Shown here piece by piece: positions 1,922 to 31,163 of a DNA stretch of 33,500 nt. Position 1 is the first letter of the stretch; every line of letters starts with the position of its first letter. Below the pieces are notes generated by a model. That model ran no database searches, had not been told where the DNA came from, and worked only from the letters and a program-made list of their open reading frames with translations. Position numbers and translations under genes: made by a program. This DNA is from Gammaproteobacteria bacterium (GTDB lineage Bacteria > Pseudomonadota > Gammaproteobacteria > JAJDOJ01), in assembly GCA_027030565.1 (NCBI GenBank), contig JALVEU010000140.1, forward strand, positions 1 to 33,500. The letters run 5' to 3'.

Positions 1922-3100
1922 TCAGCTCGCTCGATCGAGCGGGGACCCGTCCGTCGTACCTGACACCTTCGGATCCAGTGTTTCACCGCCACGGGGGTGC
2001 GTCGGATCGGCCGAGCTCAGATGGCGCGAGAGGAACGCCCCCAGCTCCCGATAGACTGCGCGCGACTCCGGCGAATCGGGCACACCGATGTAGTCGCCGT
2101 GCGAGAGGCCTTCATACACATTGAGCTCGGCTGGCACACCAGCCTCTCGGAGTCGGCGGTGCACCCGAATGGTGTGACTCAGAAAGAGGTCGCGCGTCCC
2201 AGTGACCAGATAGGCGGGCGGCAGACCGGCGAAGTCCCCGTAGACCGGGGACAGCAGCGGATCTCTCAGATCATGGCCGCCGGCGTACAGCCGTGCTGCC
2301 GCGTGCAGTGGGCCGTCGTAGGTGACCAGCAGGCGATCGATCCCCTCGTTGATCCACAGGCTGTCGCCTGTCTTGGTGAGATCCGCCCAGGGCGTGCCCA
2401 GATACATGGCTCCCGGCAAAGGCAGGCCGAGCGACTTCAGCCGCTGCATCAGGGCCAAGGTCAAACCGCCCCCCGCAGAGGTGCCCCCCACCGCGAGTGT
2501 GCATGGATCCCGAGTCTCGAGCTGTGCCCGGTACACGGCCACCGCGTCTTCGAGCGCCGCCGGAAACGGGTGAGCGGGCGGCATGCGGTAGTCCACGGCG
2601 AGCACTGGGATGCCGATGCGAGCCGCGATCAGCACGGGCTCCATGAGTCCCGCCACCCCTGCATTCAGCACGTAGGCGCCACCATGGAAATAGAGCAGCA
2701 GGTGATTCTGATGTTCCCGCGCGATGGCGGGGGGCCAAACGCGGTGCACACGCGCGCCCGCAATGGTCGCAGGCTGGAGCGAAACGGAGGCGCGCCGGGC
2801 CGCCTCCCGCACCGCTCTGGCGGCCGCCCGATCATTGCGCTCGGCCTCCCGCGCCCAGTCCGCCGGCACCGCCTTGCGAGCCGCCTCGACATTGGGTACC
2901 GGCCCGCTGCGTAGCACCTCGCGCAGCTCGGGGCTGGCCGCGGCGGGCAGCGGCAGCTGCCTGCCCGGTACCCACCAGCCTTCCCGGACCTCTTGGACCA
3001 GGGCGATGGATGCGAGGCCCAGCAAGGCCACAGCCCCCAAGCCGAGCCGATATCCCCCTTTCATGTGGGTCTGTTGTTTGCTGGCCCGTCGTTTGCGCAT
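1922..3100 (-). CDS. Alpha/beta hydrolase (hormone-sensitive lipase/esterase family), N-terminal membrane anchor or signal
   Basis: HGGAYVLN oxyanion motif, GGTSAGGG nucleophile elbow, VTGTRDLFLSH (Asp) and YEGLSHGDYIG (His). Confidence 0.85.
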   Translation of the reverse strand: MRKRRASKQQTHMKGGYRLGLGAVALLGLASIALVQEVREGWWVPGRQLPLPAAASPELREVLRSGPVPNVEAARKAVPADWAREAERNDRAAARAVREAARRASVSLQPATIAGARVHRVWPPAIAREHQNHLLLYFHGGAYVLNAGVAGLMEPVLIAARIGIPVLAVDYRMPPAHPFPAALEDAVAVYRAQLETRDPCTLAVGGTSAGGGLTLALMQRLKSLGLPLPGAMYLGTPWADLTKTGDSLWINEGIDRLLVTYDGPLHAAARLYAGGHDLRDPLLSPVYGDFAGLPPAYLVTGTRDLFLSHTIRVHRRLREAGVPAELNVYEGLSHGDYIGVPDSPESRAVYRELGAFLSRHLSSADPTHPRGGETLDPKVSGTTDGSPLDRAS

Positions 3101-3228: not shown

Positions 3229-3741
3229 TCACACGCCGCCGCTGTGGACGACCTCGTAGTAGAGCTTCTCGAGCTCGCGCTTGTGCTCAGCCTCCTCCTT
3301 GGCCAAAAAGACGAACAGGTCGCGGATGGGACCCTCCGGGGCCGACTCGGCCAGGGACTGGTACTGCTCCATGGCCGTTTTCTCGCGGCCCATGGCGTAC
3401 TGCAGGATGGACTGATCGTCGGGATGCTCGCCCAGATCCGGGATGTGGATGTGGTCGGAGAAGCGGGTGTTGCTGGGCGGCGTCTTGACCTTCTCCTTGA
3501 GCTGGTCCTCAAGGCCCGGGGTCTTGGCCAGGTTCATGAACAGGTCGTAGTGGCGCTGTTCCTCCTGGGCCAGCTCGTCCACCAGCCAGCGGATGTTCTT
3601 GCTCACCTTGGGCGCCAGGTCCCGGTAGAAGTCCCGCGCGGTGCGCTCGAACTCCGAGGCGGTCTCCAGGATCTCGGCCAACGTCGTCTTGGACTGGATG
3701 CGCGCGTAGGCGCTGGGCTGTCCCTCGGTCGGCTCGCTCAT
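3229..3741 (-). CDS. Rubrerythrin/ferritin-like diiron-domain protein
   Basis: Two ferritin-like helical motifs (LAQEEQRHYDLF and LAKEEAEHKRELE). The probable start MSEPTEGQ overlaps the upstream stop by 4 nt (ATGA). Confidence 0.75.
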   Translation of the reverse strand: MSEPTEGQPSAYARIQSKTTLAEILETASEFERTARDFYRDLAPKVSKNIRWLVDELAQEEQRHYDLFMNLAKTPGLEDQLKEKVKTPPSNTRFSDHIHIPDLGEHPDDQSILQYAMGREKTAMEQYQSLAESAPEGPIRDLFVFLAKEEAEHKRELEKLYYEVVHSGGV

Positions 3742-5591
3742 GCCGTCTTCTCCAGTTGCGTGAGACAAGCGTCGATGCTCGCCGCCACCCGGTGGCCGTC
3801 GGCCACGGCATGGACCACATCGGGGCCGTGCACATCGTCACCGGCGGCCCACAACCAGGGCACCGCAGTGCGCCCCTCCTCGTCCACCTGCAGGCGCCCC
3901 CGCACCCATTCGAGCTGTTCGATCAGATCCTCGCCGAGCAGGCTCATGTCGGCCATCTGACCGATGGCCTCGACCACCCACTCGCCCTCGTGGAAGCGCT
4001 CGTCCTCGGGGTCCAGCTCGGGGGCGAACCGGCCCTTCTCGTCGAAGATGGACTTCACCCGCCAGGTGACCAGCCCCTTGATGCGGCCGTCCTCGATCAC
4101 CACCTCGCGGGGTCCTCGCGAATCCAGGATCTCGATGCCCTCCTCGCGCGCCTCCTTGACCTCCACCGGGTCGGCCAGGAAGTGATCGAAGTCCTCCAGC
4201 GCCACCACGGTGATGCGCACCTCGCCGTACTTCTGCATCTGGAAACGGGCCATGGTGCGGGCGATGTCCATGGCCACGTTGCCGCCGCCGATGACCACGG
4301 CGGTCTGCGGCACGTCCAGCGCGCGGCCCTCGCCCGCCTCGCGCAGCAGGTCCACCGCGCGCTTGACGTCCTCATGCTCCGAGCCCGGGATGCGCGTGGA
4401 ACGGCCCATCTGCAGGCCGATGGCCAACACCACGGCGTCGAACTCCTCACGCAGCGCCTCCATGGTCACATCCCGACCCACGCGGGTGTTGTAGCGGATC
4501 TCCACGCCCAGGGACTCGATGACCTCGACCTCCCGGTCCAGGATCTCCTCCGGCAGGCGGTAGTAGGGGATGCCGTAGCGGGTCATGCCGCCGGCCTTGG
4601 GCTGCGCCTCGAAGACCACCACCCGATGGCCCTTCTTGACCAGATCGTAGGCGGCGGTGAGCCCGGCCGGCCCCGCGCCGACGATGGCCACGGATCGGCC
4701 GGTGACGTAGTCGGCCTTGCCCTCGGCGGCGATCGCCTTGATGCGTTCGTGGGGAACCCGATCCGTGGCATAGCGCTTGAGCCAGCGGATCGCCACGGGC
4801 TCTCCGCGACGCCCGATGGAGCAGGCGGCCTCGCAGCGGTGGGTGCAGACCCGGCCGCAGACCTGGGAGAACGGATTGGTGCGGTACATCCAGCGCACCG
4901 CCTCCTCCGGCTCCCCGCGCCAGATGGCCCGGATGTACTCGGGGGCGTGCATGTGCGTGGGACAGGCGTCGTGGCACATGCCGCACTGCACGCAGCGCGA
5001 GGCCTCGATGATCGCCTGCTGATCGTCGTAGCCCAGCACCATCTCCTGGAAGTTGTCCACCCGTTCCTCGGGCGGCAGCTCCGGCATGGGCTGGCGCTCC
5101 AGGTCCAGGAGGTCGTTGGTGGGCGTCTTGGTCCAGCCCAGCGGATAGGGTGTGCCGTGGATGCCGTGCTCGTCCGGCAGCACGAAGTAGCTGTCGATCT
5201 CCTCTTGCGTGCAGGTGTGCACGTACTCGCGCGACAGCTTGATGGCGCTGGTGGGGCAGATGTCCACGCACAAGGCGCACCAGCAGCAGCGTCCGTAGTC
5301 GATGGCCGGGCGCAATGGCCGGATCCCCTTGACCGGGTCCTCCGGGGCCCCCGGCACGTGGACCATGGTGATGGCCGCGTTGTCGCAGACCTTCTGGCAG
5401 CTCCCGCAGCCGATGCAGGCGTTCCAGTCGTTGAGGTGAAAGCCCCGGTAGATCTCCGCGGCCGGCCGTGGTTCCAACGGCTCGGTCACCGGCGGCCGGA
5501 ACAGGAACTGCAGGTTCTTGAGCGGCGCCAGCAGCGAGCCGCGGTCCTCGTAACGGACCTCCGAGCGCCGTGCCTTGGGCTTACCGGTCAT
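3738..5591 (-). CDS. NuoI-like 2[4Fe-4S] ferredoxin fused to GltD/NfnB-type FAD-NAD(P)-dependent oxidoreductase
   Basis: N-terminal CIGCGSCQKVC and CCWCALCVDICP; GltD-type Cys region (CVQCGMCHDACP, CGRVCTHRCEAAC); two Rossmann motifs (VAIVGAGPAGLTAA; AVVIGGGNVAMDIA). Confidence 0.85.
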   Translation of the reverse strand: MTGKPKARRSEVRYEDRGSLLAPLKNLQFLFRPPVTEPLEPRPAAEIYRGFHLNDWNACIGCGSCQKVCDNAAITMVHVPGAPEDPVKGIRPLRPAIDYGRCCWCALCVDICPTSAIKLSREYVHTCTQEEIDSYFVLPDEHGIHGTPYPLGWTKTPTNDLLDLERQPMPELPPEERVDNFQEMVLGYDDQQAIIEASRCVQCGMCHDACPTHMHAPEYIRAIWRGEPEEAVRWMYRTNPFSQVCGRVCTHRCEAACSIGRRGEPVAIRWLKRYATDRVPHERIKAIAAEGKADYVTGRSVAIVGAGPAGLTAAYDLVKKGHRVVVFEAQPKAGGMTRYGIPYYRLPEEILDREVEVIESLGVEIRYNTRVGRDVTMEALREEFDAVVLAIGLQMGRSTRIPGSEHEDVKRAVDLLREAGEGRALDVPQTAVVIGGGNVAMDIARTMARFQMQKYGEVRITVVALEDFDHFLADPVEVKEAREEGIEILDSRGPREVVIEDGRIKGLVTWRVKSIFDEKGRFAPELDPEDERFHEGEWVVEAIGQMADMSLLGEDLIEQLEWVRGRLQVDEEGRTAVPWLWAAGDDVHGPDVVHAVADGHRVAASIDACLTQLEKTA

Positions 5592-5610
5592 GGCCGTCCC
5601 CTGGAATACG

Positions 5611-5696
5611 CACCGCGAAGGCGCGAAGCATATGTGTTTGGAGAAACGAGTACACCAATTCCATTTTCTCTTCGCGTCCTTCGCGCCTTGGCGGTG
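5611..5696. repeat. Intergenic inverted repeat, CACCGCGAAGGCGCGAAG ... CTTCGCG(TC)CTTCGCGCCTTGGCGGTG
   Basis: Arms at 5611-5628 and ~5670-5696 are imperfect reverse complements; the same arm sequence recurs at 6873-6890 and 7037-7054. Confidence 0.7.
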
Positions 5697-5708
5697 AAAA
5701 ATATGACA

Positions 5709-6851
5709 TCACCGGTCCACCTCCGGCGGGCAGGCATCCAGCGTGAACATGATCTGGGCCACGTCCTCGATGCGGGCGCCACGGGCCAGGTGCTCCAGGA
5801 CCTGCACCGCGTGCATCATGGAGGCGCCGCGCACGTGGACCCGGTAGGGCTTCTCGCCCCCGTCGGAGACCACGTACCAGGCGAGCTCCCCCTTGGAGGA
5901 CTCCACCCGCGTGTAGGCCTCGCCGGCCGGGACCTTCCAGGCCAGGGGGTTGGGGATCGGCGCGCGCACCGGACCCGGGATCTCCGGGAGCCGCTCGATC
6001 ACCTGGCGCACGATGCGGATGCTCTGGACCAGCTCGGCACGGCGCACCAGGGTGCGGGCGTAGGCGTCGCCCGCCGACTCGGTGGGGATGTCGAACTCGA
6101 GCTGGTCGTAGACCAGATACGGGTCGTCGCGGCGCACGTCGAAGGCCAGGCCCGTGGCGCGCAGATTGGGTCCCGTCACACCCAGCTCCAAGGCGGTCTC
6201 CTGATCCAGCACCCCGACCCCCTTGGCGCGGTCCACCAGCACCTGATTGCGGAAGAACAGGTTGTCGTAGTCGGGCAGGCGCGATTCCAGATAGTCCATG
6301 GTCGCCGCCACCCGACCCAGGAAGCCGGGCGGGACGTCGCGCCGTACGCCCCCGGGGATGTTGAAGATGTGATAGACACGGCCCCCACTGAGCTCCTCGA
6401 ACAGGTCGAGAATGCGATCCCGGTCGGCCACACCCCAGAACATATTGGTGTACATGCCGGTGGTGGAGGCATGGCCGCCGAAGGTGAACAGATGCGCGGC
6501 GATGCGGGAGAGCTCGAGCTGGAGCACACGCAGCCACTGGGCCCGCTCGGGCACCTCCAGCCCGCAGAGCTCCTCCACCGCCAGGGAATAGGACACCTCC
6601 ATGGGCACCGGGTCCGGCACGCAGATCCGGGGCACCAGGGCGATGTTCTGAATCCACAGCCGCCCCTCCATGAGCTTCTCGAAACCGCGGTGCAGATAGC
6701 CGGCGTCGGCCTTGCCCTCGATCACCCGGTCGCCGTGCAGGCGCAGCTTGAAGGCGTAGTTGCCCTCGATGCCGGGGTGGTTGGGCCCGATGAAGAGCTC
6801 GTACTCGTGGCTCGGCGGATGACTCCGGGCCTGGTAGTTCTCAGGACGCAT
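5709..6851 (-). CDS. NuoD / group 4 hydrogenase large-subunit-like (49 kDa) subunit lacking a full [NiFe] site
   Basis: IGPNHPGIEGNYAFKLRLHGDRVIEGKADAGYLHRGFEKLMEGR; GGRVYHIFNIPGGVRRD; GPNLRATG; C-terminal DACPPEVDR. Confidence 0.92.
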   Translation of the reverse strand: MRPENYQARSHPPSHEYELFIGPNHPGIEGNYAFKLRLHGDRVIEGKADAGYLHRGFEKLMEGRLWIQNIALVPRICVPDPVPMEVSYSLAVEELCGLEVPERAQWLRVLQLELSRIAAHLFTFGGHASTTGMYTNMFWGVADRDRILDLFEELSGGRVYHIFNIPGGVRRDVPPGFLGRVAATMDYLESRLPDYDNLFFRNQVLVDRAKGVGVLDQETALELGVTGPNLRATGLAFDVRRDDPYLVYDQLEFDIPTESAGDAYARTLVRRAELVQSIRIVRQVIERLPEIPGPVRAPIPNPLAWKVPAGEAYTRVESSKGELAWYVVSDGGEKPYRVHVRGASMMHAVQVLEHLARGARIEDVAQIMFTLDACPPEVDR

Positions 6852-6872
6852 GGGGACTCACCATCGGTCACT

Positions 6873-7054
6873 CACCGCGAAGACGCGAAGTAGCTGTAGG
6901 CCGGATAAGCGAAGCGCATCCGGCACGCCGAGGTTCCAATCGCCCGATGCGCTGCGCTTATCGGGCCTACGGCTTGCCCTGCCCGATGTGCCACCACGAT
7001 CGGGTCCGCGAGGAAGCGCCGTTCGTTCTCGGTGCCCTTCGCGCCTTCGCGGTG
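6873..7054. repeat. Composite nested inverted-repeat element (outer CACCGCGAAG-type arms, inner REP/BIME-like arms)
   Basis: Outer arms CACCGCGAAGACGCGAAG (6873-6890) and CTTCGCGCCTTCGCGGTG (7037-7054). Inner arms GTAGGCCGGATAAGCGAAGCGCATC (6896-6920) and GATGCGCTGCGCTTATCGGGCCTAC (6946-6970). Confidence 0.85.
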
Positions 7055-7062
7055 CACGCCCA

Positions 7063-7647
7063 TCAGTCCTCCCGGCGGCTGTAGCGCTGTTCGTCTGGGG
7101 GGATGGCGATACCGCCCCCCTGGGCCTCGAGCTCCTTGAGCCAATCGGGGCGGTACTCCTGCCAGTTGAAGAATTGATTGATATAGGCCTCGCTGTCGAA
7201 GTCCTTGCGCATGGGCGGAGGGCCGTCCCACTCGGTGAGGATGAACTTCTCCATGAACGGGCTGCCCTCGAAATAGACGCCGAACATCTCGTAGATGTCG
7301 CGCTCGAAGAAGGCTGCGGGCTTGTAGAGATCGTAGACCGACAGATACCTGCCAGGCTCGCGCGGGATGCGCGTGTGCGCCGAAATCAGGGACTGGGTCT
7401 CATAGGACCACACGTGGTAGATCAGCTCGAACTCGCCCTCCGCGATCCAGTCCACGCAGGTGATGGCCGACAAATGCACGTAGGAGGCCTTGCCCTTGAG
7501 GAGCTCAAGGAGGGTGGGCAGGGCGTCGGCATCCACGTCCAGACGCATGCGTCGCTCGCGTTTGCGTCGCATCTCCACCTGCTCGATCTCGGCGAGCAGG
7601 TCGTCCAGCCAGACCTGGAGCTCACGAGAGCCCTGGTTCATCGGCAC
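7063..7647 (-). CDS. NuoC-like 30 kDa subunit
   Basis: ITCVDWIAEGEFELIYHVWSYE and FERDIYEMFGVYFEGSP are typical of the complex I 30 kDa family. Confidence 0.9.
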   Translation of the reverse strand: MPMNQGSRELQVWLDDLLAEIEQVEMRRKRERRMRLDVDADALPTLLELLKGKASYVHLSAITCVDWIAEGEFELIYHVWSYETQSLISAHTRIPREPGRYLSVYDLYKPAAFFERDIYEMFGVYFEGSPFMEKFILTEWDGPPPMRKDFDSEAYINQFFNWQEYRPDWLKELEAQGGGIAIPPDEQRYSRRED

Positions 7648-7648
7648 C

Positions 7649-8341
7649 TCACTTGAGCCGCATCCGATGGGGGATCAGGGGCTGTTGCACCTGCTGCAAC
7701 AGGGCGGTGTGCTCACCCTCGGTCTCGGGCCCATGCAGGCCGTATTGCTGCGCCTCGCCCAGCACGTCCGTGGGCGTCTGCCAGCGCTCGCCGAACAGGG
7801 CCTGCTGATTGCCCAAGTAGTGGTCGTAACGCCGGTAGTAGTCCTTCCAGCTCTCGGCCTTGCCGGTCTTGATGAGGCCCATGAGCTTGCGCATGCCGGA
7901 AACCACCGCCTCGGGCCGCGGCATGCAGCCGGCGATGTAGAGGTCGACCGGCAGGTAGTCGGCCAAGACCTTGGCGGTGGCGTAGCTCTGCCAGTACATG
8001 CCCCCGTTGACCGTACACGAACAGATGCCGATGACGTACTTGGGCGCGGGCATCTGCTCGTAGGTGAGGATGATCCGTTTGAGCGTCTTGACCGAGACGT
8101 AGCCCGTCACCAGCAGGATGTCGGCCTGGCGCGGGGTGACCATGGGCTGAATCCCCAGGCGCTCCATGTCGAAGCGCGAGGTCATCGCCGGGGGCAGCTC
8201 GATGGCCCCGCACCCGGTGCAGTAGTGCAGCATGAACAGCGAGTGCGAGCGGCAGAAGCGCACGAACTCGTCGAAGACATGGGCCAACGGATTGGTCCGC
8301 TTGGCAAAGGCCCCTTCGGTCCGGACAGGCAGCTCTTTCAT
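7649..8341 (-). CDS. NuoB / hydrogenase small-subunit-like subunit
   Basis: Start MKELPVRTEG (4-nt overlap with NuoH). HYCTGCGAIELPPAMTSRFDMERLGIQP, ADILLVTGYVS, IGICSCTVNGGMYWQSYA and IAGCMPRPEAV. Confidence 0.9.
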   Translation of the reverse strand: MKELPVRTEGAFAKRTNPLAHVFDEFVRFCRSHSLFMLHYCTGCGAIELPPAMTSRFDMERLGIQPMVTPRQADILLVTGYVSVKTLKRIILTYEQMPAPKYVIGICSCTVNGGMYWQSYATAKVLADYLPVDLYIAGCMPRPEAVVSGMRKLMGLIKTGKAESWKDYYRRYDHYLGNQQALFGERWQTPTDVLGEAQQYGLHGPETEGEHTALLQQVQQPLIPHRMRLK

Positions 8342-9225
8342 GACCACATCACCACCGCTAGGCCCAGCAGACCCGCCAGGACCGGCCACTTCCACAGCGA
8401 GCCCAGCATCTGCTCGGCCCGGTAGCGCGGAAACTGAAACGCGATCGTCATGGGGATGGCCACCACCAAGAAGGCCTTGACCAGAAAATCGATCCAGGTC
8501 ACGCCACCGCCCAGGAACAGGGTGGTGTACAGGATACCGGCCGTATACAGGGAGAAACTCTGCATCACGATCAGGCTCCCCAGATACTTGCCGCCCATCT
8601 CCACCATGGGACCGGTGGCGATCTCCGCCGGGGCCACGTAGATCTCGAAGGGCTGCTTGCCCAACATGCCCTGCAGGGCGAACAGCCCCGCAAACGCCAG
8701 CAGCGGCGCCTGGAACAGCCCCCAGCCATGGGCCTGCTGGTATTCGACCATCTGCACCAGGTTGGTGGTTCCATACATCCACGACATGCCGAAGATCACG
8801 ATCACGAACGGGATGTCGTAGGCCAGCATGGCGGTGAGCGCGCGGGAGATGCCGATGGAGGCATTGGGATTGGCGCACTGGCCGGCCGCCAGCGCCATGC
8901 CCAGCGACGGCACCATCAGGAAATAGATGAGCGTGATGACGTCCGTACGGTCGGCGATTCCCGTCATCCCCGGCACGGGAATCAATGTCTCGGCGGCGAT
9001 GTAGCCCCCCACCGCCACGATGATCCCCACGTCGTGGATGAGCCCGTGGGAGATCTGGGTCTGCTTGCCGAAGAACTTCACCACGTCGTACAGGGGCTGG
9101 AAGAACGGCGGACCCACACGCCGCTGAATCTTGGCGGCGATCTTGCGCATCATGAGGAGCATGGCGAGCCCCACCACGAAGGCCACCGCGGGCATCAGCA
9201 CCAGCTCGACGATCAGCGCCATCAT
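8338..9225 (-). CDS. NuoH-like membrane subunit
   Basis: IQRRVGPPFFQPLYDVVKFFGKQ, with FAGLFALQGMLGKQPFEIYVAPAEIATGPMVEMGGKYLG. The upstream stop overlaps the start by 4 nt. Confidence 0.92.
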   Translation of the reverse strand: MMALIVELVLMPAVAFVVGLAMLLMMRKIAAKIQRRVGPPFFQPLYDVVKFFGKQTQISHGLIHDVGIIVAVGGYIAAETLIPVPGMTGIADRTDVITLIYFLMVPSLGMALAAGQCANPNASIGISRALTAMLAYDIPFVIVIFGMSWMYGTTNLVQMVEYQQAHGWGLFQAPLLAFAGLFALQGMLGKQPFEIYVAPAEIATGPMVEMGGKYLGSLIVMQSFSLYTAGILYTTLFLGGGVTWIDFLVKAFLVVAIPMTIAFQFPRYRAEQMLGSLWKWPVLAGLLGLAVVMWS

Positions 9226-11093
9226 GCCGCCACCCACCAGAGCGCCAGGACGGTCACCCCCAGGAGCCAGGCGGCAGGCTGAACCACCCGGTAGACCCCC
9301 GCGGCGGCCTGGGCCAGCAAGTCCGTGGCGGCGACCACGGAATCCTGCAGCCACTGGAAGCTGCCGCGATACCAGGGACCGATGCGGTGCATGAGCCCGG
9401 CATAGAAGTTGTCGCTGTAGTGGTAGCGCACCTCGGCGGTGAGAAAGTGGCCGCCGGCATAGTTGTCCAGTTGATGCACGGTGCGCGCCCGGCCGCCGGC
9501 CAGGAAGATCAAGGCCCCGACACCGAAGCCGGCGAACAGGATGCCCACCACCCAGAGCATGTCCAGCCCCCCGTCCGGCCTCTCCACACCCCCCAGGGTG
9601 GGCGCCAGCACGGCCAGCCCAAGCTCACGCTGCACCGTGGTCAGCCAGTCGAGGACCAGGCCCGGGGCGAGCCCCGTGACGAACACGATGAGGGAGAGGG
9701 CGAGCATGGGTGCCAACATGGACCCGGGGACCTCGCGCACCGACTCGTGCTCCACGCGCAACTGGCCCAGGAAGATGTTGTGCAGCAGCTTATAGACCGA
9801 GACGATGGTGCCCAGGGTACCCACCACCGCCGCCACGAAGAGCAGCGGCTGCCCGTCGTCGATGAGCGCCCGGTAGATGAGCCACTTGGACACGAAGCCA
9901 TTCATGGGTGGGAGCCCCGCCAGGCCGATGATCCCGACGAGCAGCACCAGGAAGGTCAGCGGCATGCGGGTGACCAGACCGCCCAGCTTGTTGAGATCGG
10001 CCGTGCCCGTGCGGTAGACCACCGCCGTGACCGCCATGAAGAGCGCCGCCTGATAGGTCGCATGGTTGAACACGTGCATCAAGCCCCCAGCGCTCGCCAG
10101 GGCATCCCCCATGGCCACCCCCATGAGCATGTAGCCGCCCTGCCCGATGCCGTGCCAGGCGAGGAGCCAGCGCGCATCGTTCTGCTTGAGCGCCGTGAAG
10201 GTCGGCAGGACGATGGTGAAGGCGGCGATCCAGGCCAGCAGCTCGTGGGCCTCCAATGGTGTCCACGGAATGCTGAGGGCCTTGAGCGTCCCCAGCCCCA
10301 GCACCCCGAACAGGGTGAGCAGCATGGCATACAGGCCCATGCGCGAAGAGATGGCCCCCAGGAACGCCGATCCGGGTCCCGGCGTCTCGGCGTAGGCGCC
10401 CGCCTGCCAGAGGTGGAAGGGCAACAGGCCCATCTTCACGCCGAAGCCACCGGACAACAGGATCACCAGGGACCACAAAGTCCCGGCAGAGAGGTCCGGC
10501 ACCACCGCCGCCAATGCGCCAAACTCGAACGAACCGGTGAGCGCATGGGACAACACCATCGCCGCCATGACCGCCATGGCCCCCCCGATGGCATACACCA
10601 GGTACCGCAGCGCCCAGCGCACCCCCACGCCCCCGGCTGCGAGCATCAGCACGAAGCTCGCCCAGCTCACCAGTTCCCAGCCCACGAACAGGGAGAGGAA
10701 GTCGCGGGAGGCCAGGAGCACGTACATGGTCGAGGGGTTCAGGGCCAGGGCGAGCTGCAGCAGGCGCAGATCACCACCTTGCTCGGCGTAGTGCCGCCCC
10801 CAGGCGCCACTCATGAACCACGCCGCCGCCAGCGCGGCACCCGCCGTGATCACGGCGAAGAACCACGACAGGGCCGTGAACTGCCAGCTCAGGCCGTACC
10901 CCAGAACGCTGAATGCGGGGGAGGCCGGCACCGGATCCGCCCCGTAGGCCAGCGGACCCATGAACGCCACCAGCAGGAACTGCACTCCATACAACGCAGT
11001 GAGCCACGGCCCAGCCGAGGGCGAGCGCCCGAAGAGCCCCGCGGCCAGGGCGGTCAGGGCAGAGGCCAACCAGAGCCCGTCCAGCAGCGTCAC
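9222..11093 (-). CDS. MrpD/NuoL-family proton/cation-pumping membrane subunit (first of two)
   Basis: Proton_antipo_M-type core (LASRDFLSLFVGWELVSWASFVLML; FNHATYQAALFMAVTAVVYRTGTADLNKLGGL; GLAGLPPMNGFVSKWLIYRAL). A GTG start at 11093 gives a GTGA overlap with the upstream gene. Confidence 0.88.
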   Translation of the reverse strand: MTLLDGLWLASALTALAAGLFGRSPSAGPWLTALYGVQFLLVAFMGPLAYGADPVPASPAFSVLGYGLSWQFTALSWFFAVITAGAALAAAWFMSGAWGRHYAEQGGDLRLLQLALALNPSTMYVLLASRDFLSLFVGWELVSWASFVLMLAAGGVGVRWALRYLVYAIGGAMAVMAAMVLSHALTGSFEFGALAAVVPDLSAGTLWSLVILLSGGFGVKMGLLPFHLWQAGAYAETPGPGSAFLGAISSRMGLYAMLLTLFGVLGLGTLKALSIPWTPLEAHELLAWIAAFTIVLPTFTALKQNDARWLLAWHGIGQGGYMLMGVAMGDALASAGGLMHVFNHATYQAALFMAVTAVVYRTGTADLNKLGGLVTRMPLTFLVLLVGIIGLAGLPPMNGFVSKWLIYRALIDDGQPLLFVAAVVGTLGTIVSVYKLLHNIFLGQLRVEHESVREVPGSMLAPMLALSLIVFVTGLAPGLVLDWLTTVQRELGLAVLAPTLGGVERPDGGLDMLWVVGILFAGFGVGALIFLAGGRARTVHQLDNYAGGHFLTAEVRYHYSDNFYAGLMHRIGPWYRGSFQWLQDSVVAATDLLAQAAAGVYRVVQPAAWLLGVTVLALWWVAA

Positions 11094-12667
11094 GAGCGTG
11101 CCCCTCGAGTCGGCGACCCCGCCGGCCACCCATAGGCCCGATCAGCACGGCCCATCGGGCGATCGGAACCTCTGGAGGCGGGATGCGCTTCGCTGATGCG
11201 GTCTTCGCGCTGCCCGCGCCGGGCTACCGCGCGATCACCGAGCACGGTGCGTATATAGCCCTGGACGTCGGCCGCTTGCGCGGCCATGGCCTTCAGACCA
11301 TCGCCCAGCGGGTGCAGGGCGAATACGGAACCCACGAGCACCAGGCCGGCGAGGGAGGCCGTCACCAAGTCCAGCCCCCGATGCGGCCCGGGACTCGTGT
11401 AGCCGGCTTCACGCGCCAGTAGCACCGACAAGGTGCGAAACAGATAGGCCGCCTCCACAACCGTGGCCGCCATGACGGTCAGAGCGCCGAGCCACGCCAG
11501 TCCGGTGCCCAACCCCATCAGGCCCATCACGGTGAGGAGCTTGGCCCAGAAGCCCGGCAGGGGCGGCAACCCCACCAGCGACAGCGCGAACAGGATGAAC
11601 AGCCCGCTGGCCAGCCAGTGGCCGCGACCGGCGCCGCGCAGGCCTTCGATGGACCCGCCCCAACGCTCCGCCAACAGGAACAGCGCGGGCTTCACCAGCA
11701 GATGGTGCAGGGCCACGGCGAGCCCGGCGACGATGCCCGCCTCGCCCGGCACCGAGAAGGCGACGAACACGATGCCGAGCTGCCCGATGGACGAGAATGC
11801 GAACTGGCGCCGGAGGTCACGGGCCCGCCAGGCGGCCAGCTCGCCGGCCACGATGCCCAGCATGCCCAGCACCAGCATGAGTTGGGCCGCCTCGGGTTGC
11901 GGAAAGATCAACACCAAGATCCGCACCACCACCAGAACCGCGAGCTTGGACACCAGCCCCGCCAACAGCCCAGCCAGACGCCCGGATACGCTGCCATACA
12001 CCTCCGGCACCCAGCCGTTGACCGGGAACAGCTCGCCCTTGACCCCGAGGCCGATGAGCATGAGGGCAAAGGCCGCCAGCCCCACCGGGTCCTGGAGCCG
12101 CTCCGGGGCGAGTGTGGCCAGATGGGCCAGGTTCAACGTGCCGGTGCGCAGGTAGACGATGGTGATCCCGGCCAGCAGCAGCACCGAGCCCGCCGCGCTC
12201 AGCAGCAGGTAGCGCAGCGCGGCCCCCTGCGCCGCACCGGTACCGCGGCCGGCGATGAGCCCGAAGGAGGCCGCCGCCGTGAGCTCGTAGAAGACGTACA
12301 GGTTGAAGATGTCGCCGGAGAGCGCCAGACCGGTGGCCGAAGCGGTGAGCACCAGCGTGAGCGCGAACTGCTGCGGCGTGCCCTCGCGCGGCCACAACAG
12401 CAACGCCATGAGAGGCACCGCCAGCCCGAACAGCAGGGCCACGGCATCCAGATAGAAGACGATCCCCAGCGGGGGGCGGAAGCCGCCGATGGCAATGGCC
12501 ACCGTGCCACCGTCCAGGCGCGCCCATGCGACCCACAGGACGCCGATGCAGACGGCCAGCGTCCCCCAGCCCAGCCACTGTGCCAGGGCGCGCGAACTGC
12601 GCCCCAACGCTGGAGTCAGGAAGCCAGCGAGCAGGGGCAGGGCCACGGCCAGGACCACGAAGTTCAT
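11090..12667 (-). CDS. MrpD/MnhD-family antiporter subunit (second NuoL/M/N-type subunit)
   Basis: SGDIFNLYVFYELTAAASFGLIA; FPVNGWVPEVYGSVSGRLAGLLAGLVSKLAVLV; LLVKPALFLLAERWGG; LVGLPPLPGFWAKL. Confidence 0.9.
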   Translation of the reverse strand: MNFVVLAVALPLLAGFLTPALGRSSRALAQWLGWGTLAVCIGVLWVAWARLDGGTVAIAIGGFRPPLGIVFYLDAVALLFGLAVPLMALLLWPREGTPQQFALTLVLTASATGLALSGDIFNLYVFYELTAAASFGLIAGRGTGAAQGAALRYLLLSAAGSVLLLAGITIVYLRTGTLNLAHLATLAPERLQDPVGLAAFALMLIGLGVKGELFPVNGWVPEVYGSVSGRLAGLLAGLVSKLAVLVVVRILVLIFPQPEAAQLMLVLGMLGIVAGELAAWRARDLRRQFAFSSIGQLGIVFVAFSVPGEAGIVAGLAVALHHLLVKPALFLLAERWGGSIEGLRGAGRGHWLASGLFILFALSLVGLPPLPGFWAKLLTVMGLMGLGTGLAWLGALTVMAATVVEAAYLFRTLSVLLAREAGYTSPGPHRGLDLVTASLAGLVLVGSVFALHPLGDGLKAMAAQAADVQGYIRTVLGDRAVARRGQREDRISEAHPASRGSDRPMGRADRAYGWPAGSPTRGARS

Positions 12668-13095
12668 GCCGGACGCTCCACGGCCGGCGCGTTGCGGCTG
12701 GTCTCCGGCGGCAGGCCGGCGGCCGCGTCCAGGTCCTCGTGCAAGCGCGCCCGCAGGGTGCGCATCTCCACCGTCCCATAGGCGCGGCGCACGCGCAGCA
12801 CCAGGGCCAGGGCCAGGGCCTGCACGCCCACCCCGATGACGATGGCGGTGAGCACCAGGGCCTGGGGAATCGGGTCCACCATGGGCCCGGGAACCCGACC
12901 CTCCAGTAGAATGGGGGCGAACGCACCCTGACGAAAACCGGACAGCACCAGCAGCAGATTCACCCCAGCCTCGGCCACCGCCAGGGCCAGGACCAGACGC
13001 ACCAGATTGTCCCCCATCACCAGTCCGGCCAACCCGATGATGAGCAGGCTCACCGCACCCGTATACAGGACGATCTCCAGTGGGGGCAGGGTCAC
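12664..13095 (-). CDS. MrpC/MnhC (NuoK-like) antiporter subunit
   Basis: VSLLIIGLAGLVMGDNLVRLVLALAVAEAGVNLLLVL and PIPQALVLTAIVIGVGVQALALALVLR are MnhC/NuoK signatures. Confidence 0.88.
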   Translation of the reverse strand: MTLPPLEIVLYTGAVSLLIIGLAGLVMGDNLVRLVLALAVAEAGVNLLLVLSGFRQGAFAPILLEGRVPGPMVDPIPQALVLTAIVIGVGVQALALALVLRVRRAYGTVEMRTLRARLHEDLDAAAGLPPETSRNAPAVERPA

Positions 13096-13787
13096 GGCTC
13101 AGCGGCCTCCGTCTCCTGCAGGGTGCTCATCAGGCCCGCGATCTCGGCGCCCACCTTGAGCCCTACGGCGATGTAGAGCAGCGGCAGGGTGCCGGCCGAA
13201 AACAGGCTGCCCAAGGCGCCCTTGCCCAGCATCGGTGCGAGGAAGTCGCCCTTCACCGCCAGTGCCCACAGGCCGATCAACACGAACGCCCCACCCGCCA
13301 GCCCCTCGACCCAGTTCACCACAGCGTGGTTCAGGCTGTCCCCAGGGCGGCCCAGCAGCGGCAGGAAGAAGGCGGCGGCGAGGATCACGCCCCCCTGGAA
13401 ACCGCCACCCGGAGTCAAATGGCCGTGCAGGACGATGTACAAACCCACGATCACCAGAAGCGGAAACAGGAGATCGGCCGCCGCCAGCAGGATGAACCCG
13501 CCCTCGGGATCGGGCCGCTGGTCGGCACGTCGTCTCATGCCCGAAAGGATCAGTCCCACGCCGGCGGCCGCCGCGAACAGGATTGAGAGCTCACCCAGGG
13601 TGTCGATACCGCGATAGGCCAGCACCACGGCGGTCACCAGGTTTGCCGCCCCAACGGCCTCGGGACCCTGGCCGAGGATCCCCTCTCCCGCGACCATGGG
13701 CGCCGCCCCCACCGGCAGATCCGCTGCGAGCACGAGCAGGAAGAAACCGAGGCCACCGGCAAACAGCAGCGAAGTGAAGTTACGCAT
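13092..13787 (-). CDS. MnhB/MrpB-domain protein with MbhE/MrpA-C-like N-terminus
   Basis: VTAVVLAYRGIDTLGELSILFAAA (MrpA C-terminal-like) followed by LLFPLLVIVGLYIVLHGHLTPGGGFQGGVILAAAF (MnhB). Confidence 0.88.
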   Translation of the reverse strand: MRNFTSLLFAGGLGFFLLVLAADLPVGAAPMVAGEGILGQGPEAVGAANLVTAVVLAYRGIDTLGELSILFAAAAGVGLILSGMRRRADQRPDPEGGFILLAAADLLFPLLVIVGLYIVLHGHLTPGGGFQGGVILAAAFFLPLLGRPGDSLNHAVVNWVEGLAGGAFVLIGLWALAVKGDFLAPMLGKGALGSLFSAGTLPLLYIAVGLKVGAEIAGLMSTLQETEAAEP

Positions 13788-14076
13788 CGTCGCCCGACCC
13801 CTGCAGGGAATCCCCCGGCCGCGGGTGGTTGTCGTCGCCGAGCCCCCAGAGGCCGAGGCGGCGCAGCGCCAACACCAGGATCACTCCGCTGAGACCCGCC
13901 CCCACCGCAGCCTCGGTCATGGCCACGTCCGGCGCGCGGATGATGACGAACACCACGGAGAGGGCCAACGAGACCACCGAAGAGGCCGCCACGGCGGCCA
14001 GCAGATTGGGCAGCAGCAATACCGCCAGGGCCGAGAGGATCATGATCGCCACCACCAGGACCGTGATCCAGTACAT
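13780..14076 (-). CDS. DUF4040-type/MrpA-C-fragment (MbxD-like) subunit
   Basis: MYWITVLVVAIMILSALAVLLLPNLLAAVAASSVVSLALSVVFVIIRAPDVAMTEAAVGAGLSGVILVLALR (APDVAxTEAxVGAG motif). Confidence 0.8.
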   Translation of the reverse strand: MYWITVLVVAIMILSALAVLLLPNLLAAVAASSVVSLALSVVFVIIRAPDVAMTEAAVGAGLSGVILVLALRRLGLWGLGDDNHPRPGDSLQGSGDDA

Positions 14077-14396
14077 CAGCCCTCCTCCCGGGCCGGCGCT
14101 TCCCGGTCTTCCGGCGCCCGCCAGGGGCGCACGCCCGCGATGAGGAAGGCACGGGCCAGCGCCGACGAGCTCACCGGGCTCGTCACCAGGATGAAGCCGC
14201 CGATACAGACCAGCTTGGTCCACCACTCGGGGTGCAGGAAACCGATGCCGAGCAGAAACGACAGCGCGCCGAGGGTCACCGCCTTGGTGCCCGTCTGGAT
14301 GCGGTTGAATACGTCCGGCATGCGCACGAGCCCCAGTGCGCCCAGGAAGGAGAACGCCGCCCCGATCAGCAGGAACACGTCACCGACCCAGCGCAT
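14076..14396 (-). CDS. MrpG/MnhG antiporter subunit
   Basis: GAAFSFLGALGLVRMPDVFNRIQTGTKAVTLGALSFLLG matches the MnhG signature (RxPDxxxRxxAxxKxxTLG). Confidence 0.9.
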   Translation of the reverse strand: MRWVGDVFLLIGAAFSFLGALGLVRMPDVFNRIQTGTKAVTLGALSFLLGIGFLHPEWWTKLVCIGGFILVTSPVSSSALARAFLIAGVRPWRAPEDREAPAREEG

Positions 14397-14468
14397 GCAC
14401 CACACCTCTGCTGCGGCCCACCGCGCCGGCACCAGACCGGACCGAGCCGGCAGCCGCGGGCAGTGCTC

Positions 14469-14729
14469 TCACGAACGATTCCCTTCCACCACACGGGCCA
14501 GGGCCACCATGCCCACAAAGGAGAGCACGCCGTAGATCATGGCCACGTCGAGGTAGAGGGGGCTTTCGAACACCGCGGCAAAACCGGCCAGCGCCACGGT
14601 GGTCACCACCGAGACCATGTCGGCGCTCACAAAGCGGTCCGGGTTGGTGGGACCCACCACCAGGCGCCCCAGCCCCAGCAGCACGGCTGCACACAAGAGT
14701 ACGGTGGCGACGATCTCGACGGCGGTCAT
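14469..14729 (-). CDS. MrpF/MnhF antiporter subunit
   Basis: LGRLVVGPTNPDRFVSADMVSVVTTV and DVAMIYGVLSFVGMVALARVVE match MrpF. Confidence 0.87.
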   Translation of the reverse strand: MTAVEIVATVLLCAAVLLGLGRLVVGPTNPDRFVSADMVSVVTTVALAGFAAVFESPLYLDVAMIYGVLSFVGMVALARVVEGNRS

Positions 14730-14819
14730 CGTATCTCCCTGGACGGCGACCCGTCCCCAGCTTGCCCGCAATCTACACCGATCGGGCGGCCCGCTACTGA
14801 TCTGGATCAGACCCGATGT

Positions 14820-15332
14820 CTACTGGAGAAAACCCCGAATGTGGCGTTCGAAGCCCGCAGCGATCCGCCGGGTGGCCGACTCCAGATCGGTACCGGGTGA
14901 GGCGTCGATCCAATGGACCAGTATCCGGTCCCCACGCACGTCCACCGACAACGTACCCGGCGTCAGTGTAATGCTGTTGGCCAGTAAGAGCCGCCCAAGA
15001 CGTGATTTCAGCCCGGTCCGCACCTCCACCACCGCCGGCCGGATGGGCAACGACGGCGACAAGACACGTCTGGCCACGTCCAGATTGGCGCGCACCAGGG
15101 CGTAGAAGAAATAGCCGAGATAGGCGACCAGGGCAACGGCTGCCGAAGGCACCAGGCGCACCCCGCCGAGGATGGCGAGCCGCGGCCCTGCGACCGCCAT
15201 GGTCGCCGCCACCACCAGCACCCCGGCGAGCAGTTCCTGTCCGTCGGACGTGCCGGTGAGCAGGACCCAGAGCAGCATGCCCGCAGCAAAACCGACCACG
15301 TACTGGGACAGACGGGGCGAGACTTCGGTCAT
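14820..15332 (-). CDS. MrpE/MnhE antiporter subunit
   Basis: FAAGMLLWVLLTG; YLGYFFYALVRANLDVARRVLSPSLPIRPAVVEVRTGLKSRLGRLLLANSITLTPGTLSVDV. Confidence 0.9.
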   Translation of the reverse strand: MTEVSPRLSQYVVGFAAGMLLWVLLTGTSDGQELLAGVLVVAATMAVAGPRLAILGGVRLVPSAAVALVAYLGYFFYALVRANLDVARRVLSPSLPIRPAVVEVRTGLKSRLGRLLLANSITLTPGTLSVDVRGDRILVHWIDASPGTDLESATRRIAAGFERHIRGFLQ

Positions 15333-15373
15333 GGATCCACTCCCCATAGTGGTCGCCCGGCCACTGAGGACCG

Positions 15374-15528: not shown

Positions 15529-16362
<834 letters not shown>

Positions 16363-28147: not shown

Positions 28148-30970
28148 TCAGCCCGGGTTGCGGCGACGGCGTGCCGCCCAGCCGGCCGCCGCCAGACCGA
28201 GCAGCGTCCATGGGCCCAGCGCGCCACCACCACTGGCGCCCTCCACCCGCACCGCCACGGTATCCGTCGCGCTGGCGCCGCTGTCGTCGCTCACCGTCAG
28301 CTCGAAGACCAGGGTGCCATTCTCGTTGGGCGCCTGGAAGCTGGGCGTGGCCGTATCCGCGCCATGCAGCACCACGGCCGGACCGGAGACCTGGGTCCAG
28401 CGATAGCTGAGCGGATCCCCCTCCGGATCCGTACTGGCACTCCCGTCCAGTCGGACCGTCGTCTTGGCCTGCACCGTCTGGTCTGCACCGGCATCGGCAC
28501 GGGGCTTGAGGTTGATCTCCAGGGTCACGGTATCGGTCTCGGACGCGCCGAAGCGGTCCACCACCGTGAGCTGGAACGCCAGGATGCCGTCCTCGCCGGG
28601 GACCGTGAAGCTGGGCGTCTTGCTGTCCGGATCACTCAACTGGACGGCCGGGCCGAGGGTCTGCACCCAGGTATAGGTGGCGCCGTCGCCCTGGCTGCGG
28701 CTGCCATCCAGGGTCACCCGCTCGCCCTCGGTGACCTTGCCGCCGGGACCCGCGTCGGCGATCAGCGCCGTCTTGCAGATGTAGAGCCGCACGTCGTCCA
28801 GATACCAGCCCCGCGCCCCCACGTTGGGGTCCGTGGAGATCCGCCACCGGAACCGCACGTGCTGGCCCGCCAGCGGCCCCAGATCCAGGCGCGTCGACAC
28901 GTAGCCATGGCTCAGGCGCGTGAACGCCGCGTGGCCAGGGTTGGGATTGCCCTGGTTGGGATCCAGCGCCCCGTTGTAGCCCTGGCCGGAGTCGATGAGG
29001 TGACCCGCGTCGAACCAGGTCTTCCCGTTGTCGGTGCTGTACTCGAGAAACCCGCCGTCGAAGGTGCGCGTACCCGACTGCCCGAACTCGAACTCGAAGG
29101 CATGACGGAAGTGCAGATAGGCCTTGGCGGGGACGCCCACCGCCGGCACCATCTCCGCCACCGAATCGGTGGTCTCAGGCAGATCGGGCGCACTGAGCAT
29201 GGACCGGCCGGAGGTGGCGTAACCCTGCGCGTAGGCCCAGGCCACCGGCCCGCTGAACGTCTTGAAGGCCCAGTATCCGCGACTCGGATCCTCCATGTCG
29301 TCGAAGAACAGGTGGTGCGGCACCAACCCGGCCGGACACAGGGCCGCCTCGGGATTGAATCCCGGCTGCGGCTGCTCGTTCATCTCCACCGCTTCGGTGG
29401 CAGCGCGGACCTGGTCACAGTCGTCGGCGGTGATGCCCCGGGTCCCCACCAGATTGAGGCAGGCCTGATGCAGATCGTAATACAAGTCCAGATAGTCGCT
29501 GCCCGAGGTGAGCAGATTGGTCAGGGCCTCGTAATAGATGGCGGCCACCTTGTCGATGCCGAGTCCGCGGACAGTGACACCGTTGAAGGTGTCGCCATCG
29601 GTCATCAGGTAGGCGGCCTTGTTGTTGATGCCACTGTTGATGTGCACCCCGCCGTTGTCGGTGGCGGCCCGGTGGTAGAGGGGGCTGCTCATACGGTCCG
29701 GCTGCACGGTCCCGAAGGGCCCCAGGCGTTGATCGCTGGCGGGGTTGCGCATGTCGCGCACGGCACCGGAGAAGGCGATGGCATCCTCGCCGAGCAGCCA
29801 GCGAACCTCGGGAGAGTCGTCTCCAGCCCCGTCGGTCAGGTCGATGAACTCACCGAAGATGTCCGACAGCGACTCGTTGATGGCCCCAGACTGGAAGTAG
29901 TAGAAGAGGTTGGCCTCGAACTGGGTGATGCCGTGCACCATCTCGTGGCCAGCGATGTCGTCGGTGACCGCGCCGTCGCAGTACGTCATTTCGTCACCGT
30001 CCCAGAAGGCGTTGGGGCAAGACACCCCATCGTTCCAATGCACGGTGGAGATCAAGGGCGAGCCCAGGTCGTCGATTCCATCGCGACCGAATCGCTGGAA
30101 AAAGAAATCATAGGTATGGCCCGCGAAGCGGTGGGCGTCGTCGCCCTCTGGGTCGAGCCCCCCCGTGCAGTCCGGCTGCGCCTCGGTGCACAGGAGGGTC
30201 TTGCGCTGGACCGCGGTCCCGTCCGCCGAGTAGGTCAGCCGGTCCCGGGCGGCGTGGATCTGATTGAAATGCAGCGCGACCGAACCGTCGTGGGCATCGA
30301 TCAGGACCAATTCACGTACGGGGAGGCCAGTGGCCTTCACTTCCAATTTCCAGACCAGGCGCGCAGGTCCATCGCCGGGTTGCAGCAGGCGGGGGACGTA
30401 GACGAACAGCTGCGCCTCACCGGCCTGGAGTGCCGAAGGGTCCAGCCCATGCCATTTGGCCACTGCGGACAGGGCGGTGGCCCGGGCCTGCGCTGCGTCG
30501 ACCAGGGGCTGCGTGTCCACCGCTGGGCTTGCCCCCTCCCCGTTGATGGCCAGCACCGCCCCATCGGGCGACAGGTGCACCCGAAGCTCGCCGCCCAGCA
30601 CTGGGACACCGCCCACCTCCTGGCGGTAGCCCACCACGGCGCGCCCCCCATCCAGCACCCGTTTCCATACGGGCCGCAGCTGCGCGGCGGGGTCCCGCAC
30701 CCCGAACAGCGGCGCATACTGCTGGAGTGCGGCCGAGGCACGTGCCTTCACGGAGGCCCGGGCATTGAGGGGTGCGTCCACAGGCAGGGCGCCACCCGGC
30801 GGGGCACCCACGAACCGCACCTGCTGGGTGGCCGTGTCGGTGCCTACCCGCACCCCCTGCTTCTCCAGAGCGGTGACCGAAAGCGAGGCTTCGGCCCCGG
30901 TCGAGGTCCAGAGTGTCACCCCCAATGCCGCGCCCACACACCAGCGCAATCGTTCCCCGGTCGTCCACAT
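28148..30970 (-). CDS. Secreted M4 (thermolysin-like) metalloprotease with MAM-like and tandem PKD/REJ-like domains and GlyGly-CTERM-like tail
   Basis: DDIAGHEMVHGITQFEANL...GAINESLSDIFGEF (HExxH + E); propeptide QEVGGVPVLGGELRVHL; ADAGPGGKVTEGERVTLDGS...TLEIN and ADAGADQTVQAKTTVRLDGSAS...; C-terminus GASGGGALGPWTLLGLAAAGWAARRRRNPG. Confidence 0.92.
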   Translation of the reverse strand: MWTTGERLRWCVGAALGVTLWTSTGAEASLSVTALEKQGVRVGTDTATQQVRFVGAPPGGALPVDAPLNARASVKARASAALQQYAPLFGVRDPAAQLRPVWKRVLDGGRAVVGYRQEVGGVPVLGGELRVHLSPDGAVLAINGEGASPAVDTQPLVDAAQARATALSAVAKWHGLDPSALQAGEAQLFVYVPRLLQPGDGPARLVWKLEVKATGLPVRELVLIDAHDGSVALHFNQIHAARDRLTYSADGTAVQRKTLLCTEAQPDCTGGLDPEGDDAHRFAGHTYDFFFQRFGRDGIDDLGSPLISTVHWNDGVSCPNAFWDGDEMTYCDGAVTDDIAGHEMVHGITQFEANLFYYFQSGAINESLSDIFGEFIDLTDGAGDDSPEVRWLLGEDAIAFSGAVRDMRNPASDQRLGPFGTVQPDRMSSPLYHRAATDNGGVHINSGINNKAAYLMTDGDTFNGVTVRGLGIDKVAAIYYEALTNLLTSGSDYLDLYYDLHQACLNLVGTRGITADDCDQVRAATEAVEMNEQPQPGFNPEAALCPAGLVPHHLFFDDMEDPSRGYWAFKTFSGPVAWAYAQGYATSGRSMLSAPDLPETTDSVAEMVPAVGVPAKAYLHFRHAFEFEFGQSGTRTFDGGFLEYSTDNGKTWFDAGHLIDSGQGYNGALDPNQGNPNPGHAAFTRLSHGYVSTRLDLGPLAGQHVRFRWRISTDPNVGARGWYLDDVRLYICKTALIADAGPGGKVTEGERVTLDGSRSQGDGATYTWVQTLGPAVQLSDPDSKTPSFTVPGEDGILAFQLTVVDRFGASETDTVTLEINLKPRADAGADQTVQAKTTVRLDGSASTDPEGDPLSYRWTQVSGPAVVLHGADTATPSFQAPNENGTLVFELTVSDDSGASATDTVAVRVEGASGGGALGPWTLLGLAAAGWAARRRRNPG

Positions 30971-31163
30971 GATTTGTTGTCCTCGCTGCCTTTCCAGCCC
31001 TTCCGACTTCTTTCTGTCTGCGACCCCGCGCACCGCGCGGTCTGCAAGCAATGGTCCTGCGGCAAGTGCTCGCAAGCCTGTGACCGCAGGCCGCAGTACA
31101 CCCTCGCCCGCACAGCCGGGCCGGCCTCGGGTCGCGGCCCCGGCGGCGGAGCGCCGGTCACAT

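Follow-up and report, generated by a model that had tools for sequence, protein, structure and literature searches.

A putative NADH:sulfane-sulfur oxidoreductase of the MBS type with a fused flavin domain in dsr-carrying proteobacteria

MBS, the known ancient sulfur-reducing relative of respiratory complex I in hyperthermophiles, has been described both biochemically and structurally (PMC7684303), and the order of the mbx genes of Pyrococcus furiosus, PF1453 to PF1441, has been tabulated (PMC2678158 Table 4). Among bacteria, Thermotoga maritima possesses a 13-subunit MBX that is up-regulated by sulfur (PMC9431562), further thermophilic bacteria have MBS (PMC10356935), and a 2024 study reported a 'putative Mrp-Mbx complex' of the gammaproteobacterium Endoriftia, co-expressed with the reductive tricarboxylic acid (TCA) cycle, its function and direction being unknown in that study (PMC11636981). 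Here, we analysed a stretch of 33,500 nucleotides from a Gammaproteobacteria bacterium (positions 1-33,500 of contig JALVEU010000140.1, assembly GCA_027030565.1; hereafter the window), which contains a unit of 14 genes, all on the minus strand, extending over positions 3229-15347 from the MrpE gene, the first, to a gene encoding a ferritin-like protein, the last (Pfam scans, Table 1). An earlier note on this DNA had claimed this gene order, and all 14 genes are present as it stated; of the bounds it gave, 3229-15332, the start is right, while MrpE ends at 15347. We consider it moderately probable that the product of this unit is an NADH:sulfane-sulfur oxidoreductase which is reversible, translocates ions, possesses an NAD(H) module of its own and works beside complex I.

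The relationship of the unit to MBS rather than to complex I emerges from gene order, structural matches and phylogeny. The order of its genes, whose neighbours mostly touch or overlap in an operon-like packing, is that of P. furiosus mbx, the set A-B-C-D-(E)F-G-H-H'-M-J-K-L-N being present, which bears out the parallel with the Thermococcales Mbx/Mbs order drawn in the earlier note. For subunits H, H', M, J and L the top PDB match is MBS (6u8y), with wide margins: the score of NuoD is 415 bits for 6u8y_L of P. furiosus MBS and 272 bits for complex I of Thermus thermophilus, and that of NuoB is 217 bits for 6u8y_J and 116 bits for the runner-up, the alignment with MbsJ being ungapped through the CTGC motif of the proximal cluster. 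For the protein encoded by the penultimate gene, a NuoI::GltD fusion, the best complex-I-type match of the NuoI part is 6u8y_N, and the matches of the flavin part are Nfn-type and other GltD-like flavoproteins. In a large-subunit tree of 36 sequences, the relatives of the window protein and P. furiosus MBS stand together at 100/99, apart from Nuo and MBH/HycE, although the place of the single, long-branched archaeal MBS sequence within this group is approximate. NuoD does not fall inside canonical Nuo, the placement that the earlier note had named as evidence against its own view, and membership in canonical Nuo is ruled out by the tree together with the NuoD residues discussed below. Of the Mrp-type, NuoH and NuoBCD parts, which had been described as one MBS-like unit, the subunits compared are MBS-type by PDB score and tree.

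With MBS of P. furiosus (PF1441-PF1453), the window unit shares the 13-subunit order and composition and the signature residues of MbsL and MbsJ; it differs in that its NuoI subunit carries an extra C-terminal NfnB/GltD-like flavin part, in that a ferritin-like gene is appended, and in its hosts, which are dsr-carrying proteobacteria rather than fermenting hyperthermophilic archaea. With complex I it shares homologous B, C, D, H, I and L/M/N-type subunits and, in our proposal, the use of NADH, but it lacks the quinone-site residues and has an Mrp-type distal arm. NuoE/F/G are absent from the 14 genes, as had been claimed, and canonical NuoD and NuoF are encoded on a separate contig (C24) of the home genome.

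MBS lacks the quinone residues His38 and Tyr87 as well as Glu21 of MBH, retains two of the four NiFe cysteines, and has a shortened motif in its NuoB-type subunit, the proximal cluster being held by three Cys ligands with one iron without Cys (PMC7684303). The same pattern was found here. The motifs RICVPDP and DACPPEVDR, at the positions of MbsL C85 and C385, are invariant in the window and in 40 aligned relatives, in all of which the position of Nqo4 H38 is occupied by Glu and Y87 is absent; as in MBS, MbhL E21 is missing in the window-type NuoD. RICVP and DACPP keep one Cys each, which sets the protein apart from [NiFe] hydrogenases of group 4 (Mbh/Hyc), and the absence of the NuoE/F/G module and the replacement of the quinone-binding His/Tyr of NuoD set the unit apart from canonical complex I. 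This MBS-like residue pattern suggests that the active site is of the sulfane-sulfur type rather than a quinone or hydrogenase site. The expectation of a donor and an acceptor unlike those of complex I is thereby upheld in part and sharpened, as the signature points to sulfane sulfur instead of quinone at one end, with NADH the probable partner at the other.

The fused protein comprises a NuoI domain with eight Cys for two [4Fe-4S] clusters, followed by a Fer4_20 domain with eight invariant Cys and by the FAD/NAD domains. It matches NCBIfam NF010590 (PRK13984) over its full length (E 4e-247) with 821 bits, below the 946-bit cut-off, which is exceeded by a relative (G374, 1000 bits) whose contig C1 (4719581 bases) bears an NAD-type unit together with dsrA. 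A PRK13984 protein above the curated cut-off is found in T. maritima in addition to the 13-subunit MBX (PMC9431562), in agreement with the related cluster suspected in Thermotoga, and the NuoI::GltD fusion, being thus already catalogued, is not in itself novel. Where NfnL of P. furiosus has KLERF, the window family has WLKRY, with Lys at the position of the NfnL Glu, and an extra Cys precedes GRVC. These features suggest all-Cys ligation, so that the Fer4_20 part would act as a plain electron relay and not as an Nfn-type bifurcating site.

The same GltD/NfnB-type flavin core is present in DsrL, the NAD(P)H:acceptor oxidoreductase of rDsrAB, which shows the same coenzyme split: in DsrL-2, a YRR motif goes with the exclusive use of NADPH, and in DsrL-1, where the motif is missing, NADH is preferred or required (PMC7596348). 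Unlike the window core, which forms one protein with the NuoI subunit of a membrane complex, DsrL bears a C-terminal ferredoxin domain of its own and works with rDsrAB. YRR sits at the NADP-phosphate site in NfnB. The window fusion has ALE in its place, the relatives have ALE, AID, AME, ALQ and similar residues, and YRR is kept only in three relatives (L060-L062) of the class sample described below. The ALE-type carriers, which are the majority, are predicted to use NADH.

In the complex that we propose, the flavin domain on NuoI would exchange electrons with NAD(H), and these would reach the proximal cluster in NuoB/NuoD by way of the two Fer4_20 [4Fe-4S] clusters and then the two NuoI clusters, meeting there sulfane sulfur (polysulfide or persulfide) in place of quinone. 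This redox step would power the movement of H+ or Na+ via the NuoL-, MrpD- and MrpE/F/G-type membrane arm, and the complex would operate alongside complex I. The potentials of NADH and sulfane sulfur are about -320 mV and about -260 mV, and because the energy gap between them is small the reaction is expected to be reversible. The likelier direction appears to be the oxidation of NADH under anoxia, (stored) sulfur accepting the electrons, and gradient-driven NAD+ reduction is plausible under sulfidic, oxidised conditions. Substrate, NADH use, electron path, direction and coupling ion are inferences; what the comparisons show directly is the makeup and arrangement of the genes, their homology and phylogenetic placement, the signature residues, the lost NADPH motif and the joint occurrence with dsrA.

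The unit is not peculiar to this genome but is widespread in dsr-carrying proteobacteria. A scan of named genomes returned 48 loci, most of them from taxa known for sulfur oxidation, such as Lamprocystis, Sedimenticola, Thiolapillus, Parasulfuritortus, Gallionellaceae, tubeworm symbionts, Thiomargarita and Magnetospira. Dozens of other genomes show this gene order at identities of roughly 30-95%, which rules out a chance arrangement. The unit is complete and identically ordered at about two dozen loci, where the ferritin-like gene, the conserved last gene of the relatives, ends it; this order, that gene included, is found in Gamma-, Beta- and Alphaproteobacteria and is kept across classes at 30-48% identity. 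No larger conserved neighbourhood was found beyond the 14 genes in the loci compared, save among near relatives. In L006, L024, L037, L038 and L052 the unit is split, the membrane-arm genes being separated from the fusion and the ferritin-like gene, which may or may not be joined by NuoB/C/D; the Thiomargarita locus (L038) has NuoH at a distance of about 7 kb. In the symbiont of Lamellibrachia barhami (L015, 5367-9990), NuoB, NuoC and NuoD occur twice in tandem, as a duplication or a scaffold artefact.

The association with sulfur metabolism through dissimilatory sulfite reductase (dsr) was assessed in 370 genomes of the class and 397 of the phylum, a carrier in the class sample being a genome with a full-length fusion. 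All 19 carriers among the 370 possess dsrA, compared with 125 genomes overall, an association with a hypergeometric P of ~4e-10 by genome and ~3e-8 by family (assuming 167 families), values whose weight is lowered by the relatedness of the genomes. The phylum sample added five carriers, all dsrA-positive (39/397 overall). Complex I, detected as NuoF, is likewise present in 24/24 carriers, as is dsrA, which rules out a replacement of complex I: the MBS-type complex is an addition beside it, not a substitute. Rnf is common in carriers and non-carriers alike and hence uninformative as a distinguishing partner. The home genome (2.78 Mb, 398 contigs, 93.5% complete) has dsrA near dsrK and a homologue of dsrF/tusC; it also encodes RuBisCO.

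Based on NuoD, we distinguished groups A (window type), B1 (YRR; L060-L062) and B2 (L063, L072-L075), for which the two halves of the fused protein disagree. NuoD and the NuoI part place B2 with B1 (NuoD identity 58-64% to B1 vs 47-49% to the window), while the flavin part places it with A (57-61% to the window vs 41-46% to B1). Trees of NuoI and NuoD reject A+B2 (p-AU, approximately unbiased test, 4e-11) and trees of the GltD part reject B1+B2 (p 0.009; residues 300-617 alone, p 3.5e-4), A+B2 not being rejected for residues 164-299 of the fusion (p 0.17); the choice of test followed inspection of the identities, and the B1 branch is long in the flavin tree. Sliding identity locates the switch roughly between residues 240 and 390. 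The ferritin-like gene tracks the flavin domain, with 52% identity between A and B2 and 30% between B1 and B2. Taken together, the tree conflict and these identities argue that the FAD/NAD domain was exchanged between lineages as a block at the 3' end of the operon, the coenzyme motif going along with it, and the ferritin-like gene apparently moved too. The ferritin-like protein travels with the flavin domain and may therefore have a protective or auxiliary role at the flavin end. NCBIfam PRK12775 joins a GltD domain and a ferritin-like domain, a hint that the window protein (3229-3768) partners the flavin domain. In this protein, labelled rubrerythrin-like in the earlier note, no rubredoxin domain was found, only the ferritin-like domain.

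Several points weigh against an NADH:sulfane-sulfur oxidoreductase. The transfer of electrons from NADH to sulfane sulfur yields little energy, implying a low pump stoichiometry or an enzyme that may run the opposite way. The complex is missing from 106 of the 125 dsrA genomes and is thus not essential for the dsr pathway. The coenzyme preference is read from a motif, and ALE is not among the exact replacements listed for DsrL-1; in the literature, no member of the window subfamily was found to have been characterised biochemically. Finally, C85 and C385 are non-catalytic in MBS (PMC7684303), so that the signature marks ancestry more than chemistry.

Among the alternatives, the one that survives best, though we regard it as rather unlikely, is a complex operating in reverse, in which the ion gradient would push electrons from sulfide or persulfide onto NAD+, bypassing the quinone pool and providing cheap NADH for carbon fixation. 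In its favour, the carriers possess dsr, RuBisCO is encoded in the home genome and the energy gap is small; moreover, the loss of YRR suggests NAD(H), as in DsrL-1A, which is biased to NAD+ reduction (PMC7596348), and in Endoriftia the reductive TCA cycle and the Mrp-Mbx genes are expressed together (PMC11636981). Nevertheless, MBS has been shown only to reduce sulfur, no reversal being reported in the literature found, and complex I, always present in carriers, could do the same job. A little less probable still is a wider version, a plug-in complex of dsr bacteria whose flavin domain and ferritin-like partner would be swapped between lineages as an NADPH/NADH switch, and whose NADH form would run backwards, making NADH directly from sulfide or sulfane sulfur at the expense of the ion gradient, with no involvement of quinones.

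We give less credence to a ferredoxin-linked enzyme, in which ferredoxin would feed the NuoI clusters and the flavin domain would make NAD(P)H, or the reverse, the function as a ferredoxin:NAD oxidoreductase that was earlier put forward for Mbx of P. furiosus. MBS takes its electrons from ferredoxin (PMC7684303), electron transfer from ferredoxin to NADP has been suggested for mbx (PMC2678158, PMC6349859) and NfnB-type flavin domains couple to ferredoxin, but the MBS catalytic pocket residues, unneeded for such a role, are kept, the invariant Fer4_20 cysteines and the Lys at the NfnL Glu position count against an Nfn-like bifurcating site, and Rnf is already common in carriers. An alternative complex I, that is, an NADH:quinone oxidoreductase with an Mrp-type membrane arm, could draw on the homology of the subunits and on a flavin module able to supply NADH electrons; with His38 and Tyr87 absent in all members and the grouping with MBS at 100/99 instead of Nuo, we find it very improbable. 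That Mrp antiporter genes merely adjoin a Nuo-like cluster is scarcely credible, for although Mrp subunits exist alone elsewhere and a few genomes split the unit (L006, L024, L038), the order is that of a structurally solved complex and persists between classes at low identity.

The putative Mrp-Mbx complex of Candidatus Endoriftia is probably the same system as the window unit, which is carried by related tubeworm symbionts (L014-L016, L018, L021); that account names the complex in passing, without a fused NAD module, a coenzyme prediction or a dsr link (PMC11636981). In the open-access literature (most subscription papers lying outside the search), we found neither the fused NAD module nor the association with dsr nor the two coenzyme subtypes described. 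New here are the ALE-type replacement in most carriers, the smaller YRR subtype and the apparent flavin-domain exchange. If the NADH:sulfane-sulfur assignment is true, the proteobacterial NAD(H) form of MBS would tie sulfur directly to the NADH pool, which would explain in concrete terms how dsr bacteria, tubeworm symbionts included, burn stored sulfur anaerobically or make NADH cheaply; it also yields a testable prediction on the coupling of NADH, sulfur and ion gradients in sulfur bacteria. The coenzyme subtypes and the domain exchange would illustrate a complex-I-type enzyme changing its electron donor by domain replacement, which can be likened to complex I's own former gain of its NADH module.

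Table 1. Genes of the MBS-type unit in the window, from first to last
Product	Position	Strand	Support
MrpE/MbsA-type subunit, 175 amino acids (aa)	14820..15347	-	Pfam MNHE, E 6e-38
MrpF/MbsB-type subunit, 86 aa from ATG	14469..14729	-	Pfam MrpF_PhaF, E 4e-15
MrpG/MbsC-type subunit, 106 aa from ATG	14076..14396	-	Pfam PhaG_MnhG_YufB, E 2e-22
MbhD/MbsD-type (DUF4040) subunit, 98 aa	13780..14076	-	Pfam MbhD, E 2e-18
MnhB (MbhE+F-like) subunit, 231 aa	13092..13787	-	Pfam MnhB, E 6e-21
MnhC/MbsG-type subunit, 143 aa	12664..13095	-	Pfam Oxidored_q2, E 4e-19
MrpD-like pump subunit MbsH, 525 aa	11090..12667	-	Pfam Proton_antipo_M; top PDB match 6u8y_H, E 2e-55
NuoL-like pump subunit MbsH', 635 aa	9222..11129	-	Pfam Proton_antipo_M; top PDB match 6u8y_X, residues 64-629, E 5e-57
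NuoH-type membrane anchor MbsM	8338..9222	-	Pfam NADHdh; 6u8y_M, E 5e-57, sole PDB match at E<=1e-15
NuoB-type subunit MbsJ	7649..8341	-	Pfam Oxidored_q6; top PDB match 6u8y_J, E 4e-63, next 3e-32
NuoC-type subunit MbsK	7063..7647	-	Pfam Complex1_30kDa, E 2e-26
NuoD-type large subunit MbsL	5709..6851	-	Pfam Complex1_49kDa; 6u8y_L, E 2e-123 vs 2fug_4 (complex I) 6e-80
Fusion of NuoI/MbsN-type domain (~1-150), Fer4_20 (176-279) and FAD/NAD domains (~299-600)	3738..5591	-	Pfam, incl. Pyr_redox_2
Ferritin-like (rubrerythrin-family) diiron-type protein	3229..3768	-	Pfam Rubrerythrin, E 4e-14; EExxH motifs

Among the membrane-arm subunits, the core Asp/Arg of MrpF are kept in relatives, the N-terminus of MnhB is MbhE-like by a weak Pfam match below the cut-off, the Glu, Lys and His of the pump motifs are conserved in MbsH, and MbsH' has a long C-terminal extension. 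The unit is flanked by dapB (15529-16359) on one side and by an alpha/beta hydrolase gene (1922-3100) on the other. The position of dapB directly upstream of mrpE recurs in L041 (2059), a metagenome genome whose label, Dichelobacter nodosus, looks doubtful. The same contig also bears dnaJ, dnaK, grpE, hrcA, NAD kinase, recN-type and fur genes, and positions 28148-31315 of the window encode an M4 (thermolysin-family) metallopeptidase with PKD-type domains.

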